A stretch of 64,000 nucleotides of DNA from Bolinopsis microptera (lineage: Eukaryota; Ctenophora; Tentaculata; Lobata; Bolinopsidae), in NCBI RefSeq assembly GCF_026151205.1, contig NC_087082.1, forward strand, positions 5,525,908 to 5,589,907, written 5' to 3'. The translations under genes and the position numbers were made by a program. Positions within the stretch are counted from its first letter, which is position 1. Each line of letters opens with the position of its first letter. Below the pieces are notes generated by a model. It did not search any database and was not told the origin of the DNA. It saw nothing but the letters and a program-made list of their open reading frames with translations. This document shows, in pieces, positions 48,779 through 61,845 of this stretch.

Positions 48779-51700
48779 CTGCAAATTTTAACCATCAGAA
48801 CATCTGGGTCTCGCAGTCTTAATATCATATTTATTATTTATACATACCACATATATAGTGGTAAGCTGACTCTTGCTGTAAAATAAAAGTAAAAGTGAGA
48901 AAAACATTAAACAACTACTGCTAACCTGGCGATATGTTTTTTTTGTTGTACCTGGCGGTATGTACAATGTCCTTGACGAGGTTTACTCTAGACTAACCTG
49001 GCGGTATGTACAATGTCCTTGACGAGGTTTACTTTAGACTAACCTGGCGGTATGTACAATGTCCTTGACGAGGTTTACTCTAGACTAACCTGGCTGTATG
49101 TACAATGTCCTTGACGAGGTTTACTTTAGACTAACCTGGCGGTATGTACAATGTCCTTGACGAGGTTTACTCTAGACTAACCTGGCGGTATGTACAATGT
49201 CCTTGACGAGGTTTACTTTAGACTAACCTGGCGGTATGTACAATGTCCTTGACGAGGTTTACTCTAGACTAACCTGGCTGTATGTACAATGTCCTTGACG
49301 AGGTTTACTTTAGACTAACCTGGCGGTATGTACAATGTCCTTGACGAGGTTTACTCTAGACTAACCTGGCGGTATGTACAATGTCCTTGACGAGGTTTAC
49401 TCTAGACTAACCTGGCGGTATGTACAATGTCCTTGACGAGGTTTACTCTAGACTAACCTGGCGGTATGTACAATGTCCTTGACGAGGTTTACTCTAGACT
49501 AACCTGGCGGTATGTACAATGTCCTTGACGAGGTTTACTCTAGACTAACCTGGCGGTATGTACAATGTCCTTGATGAGGTTTACTCTAGACTAACCTGGC
49601 GGTATGTACAATGTCCTTGACGAGGTTTACTCTAGACTAACCTGGCGGTATGTACAATGTCCTTGACGAGGTTTACTCTAGACTAACCTGGCGGTATGTA
49701 CAATGTCCTTGACGAGGTTTACTCTAGACTAACCTGGCGGTATGTACAATGTCTTTGACGAGGTTTACTCTAGACTCCAACTGAGTGTCCAACCAGAGCG
49801 CTCCAGTTCGGGGGTAGGAAGCTACCACCAGTGAGGGTGCTGTCTCTGTTCCTAGCCGAGGTAATCTCTGCCACAGCTCCTCTATAATAGGCAGGGCATT
49901 TTATTAGATATTAGATAAGGAGCGAGATAAGGAGCAAGATAAGGAGCGAGACATGCTCCCTGAGCAACTCCTCTATAATAGGCAGGGTATTTTATTAGAT
50001 ATTAGATAAGGAGCGAGATAAGGAGCAAGATAAGGAGCGAGACATGCTCCCTGAGCAACTCCTCTATAATAGGCAGGGTATTTTATCAGATATTAGATAA
50101 GGAGCGAGATAAGGAGCAAGATAAGGAGCGAGACATGCTCCCTGAGCAACTCCTCTATAATAGGCAGGGTATTTTATTAGATATTAGATAAGGAGCGAGA
50201 TAAGGAGCAAGATAAGGAGCGAGATAAGGAGCAAGATAAGGAGCGAGACATGCTCCCTCAGCTGTGTGCATCTCTCCCACATAGAACCAAGCCAGCAAGC
50301 CGGGTAAGTTTCATCGCTTTTTCCAGACCGACGTTTGAAACCGTAATGTTAACTATTGCTAAAAGTTCAGAACGACTAATTACCTGAAATGAAGGGCATG
50401 AAGGGGTGGATGAGCCTGAGTCCCACATCCAGACAAGTGTAGAGAGTGTGTCTAGCTGCTTCCTTCTCATCCTCACTACCCTGAGAGAGATGTAGGGTAA
50501 TAAACAGCGTGTTGTTATCATGGCTTTTAGAATGTGTAAACAGCACGTTACGTTAACAATACAGTTACCATGGTTACCTTGTAAAAGACGCGTTTTGTGG
50601 CCTCTAAGTAAACATCGCACAGGTCGTATAACCAGAAGTTGTAGATAGCAGTGGTGCACTGCTGGAACTGGTACTCTTTAAGGGAGGTGTTAGTGTCTGA
50701 TATAGCTACTGCTGCTCTGTGCAATATCCACTTATCTGAAGGGAATAAGGTTAGTATTAGCTAGTGTAACTACAATTAGTATTACCTATTTAATGTTACG
50801 TCAGCTCAGATGGGTGACCAGTAAACATTGAAAAAAAGCAAAACGCTTGTGTACAATGTCCTGACGCTTGTGAGTAGTGCGTCAACCAATAAGTAATAAC
50901 CTAAATACTGCAAGAAGGCAAAAGTTACGTGGTAACACGTGGTACGCGTGTAAAACCCACCAATAGTAGAGAAGTTAGCAGTCTCCAGTTTGCAGGTCAT
51001 CAGGTCCCTGTCAGGAGCAGTGTAGCTGTCTCCCAGCTGCATTAGAGCGAACTTAGCAGCGTTCCACATCTTGTTGCAGAACTTCCTGTACCCTTCTATT
51101 CTCAACACGTCTAGGTTCAAGTCACGTGCCTGGAGACAGGGTAATGTCTTGAAAATAATAATTATAATGCAGAAACATATTGGTTACTGACCTGATTTAG
51201 ATACGAGCACTAACATTACCTTATATGGTAGTGTTACTATGGTTACTAACCTTAGTTAGATACGAGCACTAACATTACCTTATATGGTAGTGTTACTATG
51301 GTTACTGACCTGAGTTAGATACGAGCACTAACATTACCTTATATGGTAGTGTTACTATGGTTACTAACCTGAGTTAGATACGAGCACTAACATTACCATA
51401 TATGGTAGTGTTACTATGGTTACTAACCTGAGTTAGATACGAGCACTAACCTTATGGTAGTGTTACTATGGTTACTAACCTTAGTTAGATACGAGCACTA
51501 ACATTACCTTATATGGTAGTGTTACTATGGTTACTAACCTGAGTTAGATACAAGCACTAACATTACCATATATGGTAGTGTTACTATGGTTACTAACCTG
51601 AGTTAGATACGAGCATTAACATTACCATATATGGTAGTGTTACTGGGGTTACTAACCTGAGTTAGATACGAGCATTAACATTACCATATATGGTAGTGTT

Positions 51701-61845: not shown

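Follow-up and report, generated by a model that had tools for sequence, protein, structure and literature searches.

Within a 64,000-nucleotide window of the ctenophore Bolinopsis microptera (C11:5525908-5589907; genome of 264.65 Mb in 232 contigs), splice sites of a minus-strand valyl-tRNA synthetase (ValRS) gene, and of one gene nested within it, lie inside or at the very border of minisatellite arrays, and minisatellites of this splice-site-spanning kind are real and recur elsewhere in the genome. Protein sequences indicate that at three of the five junctions concerned (those of the 46-, 91- and 43-bp arrays) it is the splice-site copy next to the exon that is joined, at both 5' and 3' ends. 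We favour, with a probability of about two in three, the reading that these are ordinary fast-evolving minisatellites derived from local tandem duplication, and that those covering an exon edge are tolerated, the exon-proximal copy being kept and used. Arrays may be seeded at splice sites by some process, a view that is unproven and that the longer units favour weakly.

Arrays over exon edges

The sequence-only reading of the window had listed five arrays, with units of 46, 91, 59, 43 and 41 bp, placed over three donor and two acceptor sites. All five were found by Tandem Repeats Finder (TRF), and with exon edges taken from a gene finder, from homology and from a copy-by-copy listing the tally of three donors and two acceptors also holds, the 43-bp acceptor being marginal (Table 1). 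With head-to-tail units of 41-91 bp, 3.8-20.5 copies and 91-98% matches, the arrays have the unit length, copy number and identity of minisatellites or variable-number tandem repeats (VNTRs). The gene that spans them has valine-tRNA ligases as its best solved-structure relatives, and homologues in PF08264/PF00133.

In the 46-bp unit the final 41 nt of a ValRS exon are followed by the first five nt of its intron (CAG/GTTAG, the slash marking the exon edge); CAGGTTAG ends all 17 full 46-nt units, the eighteenth copy is CAGGTACA (CAG/GTACA), and the TRF span includes 43 exon bases. At the other end of the same exon the 91-bp unit carries the 3' splice site TATTATAG/AGGAG, five exon bases lying inside the array. 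The 59-bp array holds about 20 copies of a CTCAG/GTTAGT-type donor, variants included. The 41-bp unit is exonic over some 38 of its 41 bases, and 38 exon bases fall within its TRF span; the 3' end of that exon at 61683 was read by eye (TG/GTAAGT), the gene finder having ended the exon at 61719, the point at which it meets the array. The 43-bp array contains eight CCCCCAG copies, the last of which is the real acceptor of an exon of the nested PH-like gene; it reaches the exon via a degenerate last copy alone, with three identical exon bases (GAT), and by TRF bounds it ends 19 bp before the exon, for which it was counted as non-covering in the null test described below.

We note that a ATGGTAAC- or GTTACTAAC-type motif is common to several otherwise unrelated units, in the 59- and 43-bp arrays (window 51181-52377 and 57061-57387) and at C11:5598477, 5767717 and 5777013. 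Read as its reverse complement, the common donor GTTAGTA gives TACTAAC, a branch-point-like consensus.

Splice-site choice

A transcript-like relative, a 308-aa protein (P0001) from a 1158-base environmental contig and 96% identical, crosses both the 91-bp acceptor junction (FIS/EELW) and the 46-bp donor junction (HTAR/SVK) gap-free and with no added residues. The RefSeq protein of the PH-like gene (P0121) likewise crosses the 43-bp acceptor junction without added residues (QFVFR/IDGLTG), and three relatives at 48-73% identity, compared by eye, are gap-free there too. As no extra residues appear at these three junctions, the exon-proximal copy is the one used at each; the arrays contain functional exon edges, function being seen at the protein level for three of the five. 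Reading past the exon leads to an in-frame stop in all three donor arrays (after VHTARLV, KPQW and YLTQ...SKF). Use of the exon-proximal copy at both 5' and 3' ends is as exon definition predicts, and splicing from the copy adjoining the exon is apparently why the arrays are tolerated. The junctions in P0001 and P0121, together with the stops met on donor read-through, support the conservative explanation offered from the letters alone, namely that an array which leaves the outermost exon edge intact survives.

The sequence of events that we envisage is as follows. Local tandem duplication, in a ctenophore genome rich in repeats, would give rise to minisatellites, and a unit that happened to cover an exon edge would place decoy splice sites on the intron side while the exon-proximal copy stayed put. 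The spliceosome would continue with that copy, probably by exon definition, and read-through at a donor would meet an in-frame stop, so that the array would be tolerated and free to expand and contract. We infer neutrality, exon definition, and an origin by end joining or slippage. In the related ctenophore Hormiphora tandem repeats amount to 13% of the genome (PMC8527503), so an array-rich background is to be expected in Bolinopsis.

Second copy of the locus and array origin

A second copy of the locus lies 108 kb away at C11:5680545-5700243 and matches window positions 46410-52000 and 55200-62000; identity is about 99% in the outer parts, the middle is poorly polished, and pieces are missing. 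Within the 264 kb seen, the two ValRS copies are complementary and both incomplete, one being without the N-terminal part and the other without the middle exons, so that the second copy probably represents a haplotype left uncollapsed, a misassembly or a partial duplication.

Copy number varies between these near-identical copies, as it does in VNTRs. The 46-bp array has 14.0 units in the second copy and 18.0 in the window, and the 59-bp array 13.1 and 20.5, a sequence break in the second copy cutting the latter array and removing its exon; the 41-bp array has 7.3 units in both, and the 43-bp array is degraded in the second copy. The 91-bp unit is present there once, as compared to 3.8 times in the window, and this single unit is the state before duplication. 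In the duplication, five exon bases became linked to intron sequence by way of a 6-nt filler, which is missing from the single-copy sequence at either breakpoint and occurs inside the 91-bp unit. At this one junction the filler looks like the type of scar left by templated (template-copying) end joining. Tandem duplications and templated insertions linked to polymerase-theta end joining (PMC8654963 and PMC7368036) offer a parallel, in that a short filler with a match close by also stands at the junction of the 91-bp duplication, a likeness seen at one junction.

Introner elements were considered and rejected, the same sequence not being found dispersed as introns: the 46-bp unit, the one unit searched genome-wide, occurs at 23 exact places, solely at the two copies of the ValRS locus.

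Array positions and chance

The alternative that survives best is that tandem duplication has its mutational hot spots at splice sites, for example through R-loop breaks or through microhomology in the consensus or pyrimidine tract, with arrays actively seeded there; we consider this unlikely. The view that had been put forward, that five arrays over exon borders are very unlikely by chance, was overstated. Arrays occupy much of their introns, and randomising them at present length is therefore unfair; in our null each array was collapsed to one unit, which was placed randomly among all positions touching the intron. The collapsed focal introns measure 118-1966 bp (four of the five 118-398 bp), and since most of these introns were short until their arrays expanded, an appreciable fraction of randomly placed units would cover an edge in any case. 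The null expects 1.69 of the five focal arrays to do so, against four observed on a strict count (P=0.031) or five if the 43-bp array is included, the P value being uncorrected for the fact that these same arrays prompted the question. For the 41-bp array the intron taken in the null had its end set by a doubtful exon (window 59427-59495); the next ValRS exon with homology support lies at 58642-58734, so the chance of this array covering an edge would be lower, if anything.

Independent data came from 264 kb in which the window is included, together with 50 kb of C1 and C2, on which the gene finder was trained, a first run having over-predicted and been replaced. Exons of CAD/carbamoyl-phosphate synthetase, CTP synthase, RPC1 and the N-terminal part of ValRS were checked against solved structures and Pfam; a CAD linker exon and a few outer exons were without an aligned relative. 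Arrays under 100 bp, or with a unit under 10 bp, were excluded before counting, and the independent tests also omitted the second locus copy, the focal region and a CAD segment duplicated locally (block 138000-147400). Among the 21 arrays in homology-checked genes, for which the intron ends at the 5' exon of CTP synthase, at the exon past its donor array and at one CAD linker exon come from the gene finder only, five cover an edge against 3.5 expected (P=0.24) and 16 do not. The proposal that arrays are repeatedly seeded at splice sites is thus not established, and what stands of it is a modest excess for longer units, given below. That such arrays occur beyond the focal cluster is borne out, in CAD, CTP synthase, RPC1 and the N-terminal part of ValRS and at four exon ends on C4, C5 and C10; exon-edge arrays were found on C1, C4, C5, C10 and C11 and so are not confined to the ValRS locus.

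A pile-up near 3' splice sites gives the hot-spot explanation its most pointed form, in which tandem duplication in Bolinopsis would be directed mutationally at splice sites, and most of all at the stretch immediately upstream of the 3' splice site, with intronic arrays growing outward from exon borders genome-wide; this version, too, we hold to be doubtful. Of the 21 independent arrays, nine reach over a 3' splice site or to within 20 bp of one, where 2.8 would be expected (P=1.8e-4, with a distance cut chosen after seeing the data, which tells against the explanation), and the same arrays show no donor excess (three against 2.8). Wholly intronic arrays behave similarly, with 7/17 near acceptors (1.67 expected) and 0/17 at donors; one in a HIRA-like gene (L036, named by eye), added to this test, is not near an acceptor. 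With predicted introns the count is 13/21 against 5.1, two of the 21 being coding repeats, and at two lower thresholds 17/40 against 7.8 and 14/26 against 5.7. The sequence left between array and exon is often little beyond a bare acceptor (cccag, ctcag, cag); for instance, arrays in CAD introns starting at C11:5630372, 5636477 and 5670387 end 3-5 bp before the 3' splice site. Without CAD the signal falls to 2/12 against 1.08 (P=0.29), and we treat the pile-up, which rests mostly on this one gene, as a lead. An identical 37-bp unit stands beside two CAD exon copies (C11:5657161-5660015 and 5666140-5667654), apparently through local duplication of exon and array together.

Several further observations weigh against our preferred reading, of ordinary arrays tolerated at exon edges, and the first two, on long units and on a donor word, also speak for a hot spot. 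Units of at least 40 bp cover an edge in 5/12 independent arrays against 2.24 expected (P=0.03), those of at least 30 bp in 5/14 against 2.41 (P=0.048), and focal and independent arrays together, at 40 bp or more, in 9/17 against 3.94 (P=0.002). The donor word CAGGTAAGT occurs in tandem, 29-59 bp apart, at 505 places (188+317), as compared to 2 (0+2) for the reversed word, single occurrences numbering 2462 and 1212. These tandem places are dominated by a few long arrays and, among the matches listed (C1 to part of C10), represent 14 loci, a rate by locus about six times the control's (P=0.005), or 4.3 times with 10 loci counted (P=0.035), where the listed share of the genome was put at 72% and array copies were subtracted from the singles. 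Array units are somewhat more donor-like than equal-length windows (40 independent arrays, Kolmogorov-Smirnov P=0.01), and a local comparison against other core dinucleotides, the flanks being matched, gave odds ratios of 2.8 (P=0.01, two of the nine arrays being coding or very long repeats) and 2.0 (P=0.02) at two thresholds. Our account of exon-proximal use rests, moreover, on protein-level data, the 59- and 41-bp junctions being outside the transcript-like sequences.

Other results bear the opposite way. The matched-flank test reached no significance at two other thresholds, nor for acceptors; it is the corrected and weaker version of an earlier comparison of GT cores with other cores, which was dropped as it had counted arrays per strand and one locus twice. 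In the same 40 independent arrays the units are not more acceptor-like than equal windows (P=0.87), and this lack of enrichment for acceptor-like sites speaks for tolerated, ordinary arrays. The upstream side was taken for 13 of the donor-word loci, the fourteenth, an 11-bp array on C8, being left out: four are at coding exon ends (C4 twice, C5 and C10; one of them, L049, scores 6.6, below the 9.1 calibration line, and was accepted by eye), four are not or are ambiguous, and in five the array seems to extend past the sequence examined. By single-word counts about 38% of CAGGTAAGT words would be true donors, so four of eight resolved loci represent no clear excess. A whole-map null gave 10/38 arrays against 2.9 expected, which would favour a hot spot; it was set aside as too generous, since it spreads seeds over intergenic DNA. 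Two of its ten are not splice edges (a coding repeat at block 205566 and a doubtful terminal exon at block 132034), and it alone left out arrays open in some frame (14/52).

Other explanations

Selection for extra splice signals, in which repeated branch-point or pyrimidine units, or repeated 5' splice sites, strengthen weak sites, seems to us improbable. Judging from their position, acceptor-abutting arrays include the usual branch-point region, and CAG/GTTAG is intact in every full 46-bp unit, as such selection would have it; high copy identity alone explains the intact sites, and the 91-bp array, being missing from the second locus copy, is not needed there.

It is more improbable still that the introns are nascent, a tandem duplication of AG/GT having made the intron with the array as its body: each focal array covers a single edge and leaves the opposite splice site outside, the introns keep a length of their own once collapsed, and the locus copy without the 91-bp array retains that intron, so that nowhere does the duplication supply both splice sites of a new intron. 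An assembly artefact in arrays or copy numbers, which might be suggested by two incomplete copies that lie 108 kb apart and complement each other, one of them poorly polished in the middle, is the least probable explanation of all, given that the 46- and 41-bp arrays sit at identical exon edges in both copies, that the 59-bp array is also in both, and that independent cases lie on other contigs.

Other features of the window

Plus-strand genes are nested inside ValRS introns: a pentraxin/laminin-G-like gene, a PH-like coiled-coil gene (LOC134822995), whose PF00169 match falls below the Pfam cut-off, and an intronless 446-aa frame without a Pfam match. Elsewhere the window holds a 1054-aa frame like that of a long interspersed nuclear element (5429-8593), with a reverse transcriptase domain (PF00078), a tRNA gene at 740-812 (Rfam), and pure C runs of 26 bases (29600-29625) and 42 bases (36711-36752).

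Table 1. Arrays, exons and nested genes, with independent arrays and donor-word loci; coordinates are window positions.
Feature	Position	Strand	Remarks
46-bp array, x18.0	48950..49776	-	TRF; covers 5' splice site of ValRS exon 49734-49881
ValRS exon (EELWQRLP...DIVHTA)	49734..49881	-	arrays at both ends; gene finder and homology
91-bp array, x3.8	49877-50224, 12-bp sub-repeat to 50248	-	TRF; 3' splice site of exon 49734-49881
59-bp array, x20.5	51181..52377	-	TRF; 5' splice site of ValRS exon 52360-52480
ValRS exon	52360..52480	-	last 18 nt within 59-bp array
43-bp array, x7.6	57061-57387 (TRF), degenerate last copy to 57405	+	near 3' splice site of exon 57406-57574
41-bp array, x7.3	61421..61720	-	TRF; 5' splice site CAGTG/GTAAGT of exon 61683-61845
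ValRS exon (VCPMFEGM...VEPLLKPQW)	61683..61845	-	reading frame; identical in second locus copy
Nested opposite-strand genes	53194-58415, 59430-60770	+	pentraxin-like, PH-like, intronless frame
PH-like coiled-coil gene LOC134822995	56237..58415	+	in ValRS intron; RefSeq protein P0121 100% identical over query
CAD acceptor array, 51 bp x33			independent, edge-covering
CAD donor array, 49 bp x24			independent, edge-covering
ValRS N-terminal acceptor array, 46 bp x3			independent, edge-covering
CTP synthase donor array, 66 bp x2.3			independent, edge-covering
RPC1 donor array, 61/78 bp			independent, edge-covering
Donor-word loci L040, L042, L046, L049			at coding-exon ends; array abuts exon in L040
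Donor-word loci L043, L044, L047, L048			not, or not clearly, exon ends

Known systems and significance

Splice signals are known to have been copied by tandem duplication in primates, plants, flies and fission yeast (PMC2812944, PMC4974935 and PMC2891723). Human segmentally duplicated genes (De Grassi and Ciccarelli 2009, PMC2812944) likewise have variable tandem repeats that contain an exon-intron boundary and differ between near-identical gene copies; there the repeats are reported to form novel introns or alternative splicing, whereas in Bolinopsis the old junction is kept and the copies are decoys in an existing intron. In potato, local tandem duplication of splice signals crosses the intron-exon boundary as it does here, and the potato account also gives multi-copy cases from vertebrate ATP2A1 and fission yeast; unlike the potato case, Bolinopsis makes no new intron, and its copy numbers reach 18-33. 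Tandem duplication in Drosophila (PMC2891723) yields novel intron positions, which the Bolinopsis arrays do not. A literature search combining minisatellites with splice sites at intron-exon boundaries gave no match, from which we claim no wider absence.

What seems unusual in Bolinopsis is the copy number, and the persistence of an old junction beside up to about 32 decoys. Tandem, near-identical splice sites of this kind offer a natural experiment on how splice sites are chosen. Should the positional excess prove to be genome-wide, the birth of minisatellites would be linked to transcription or splicing.
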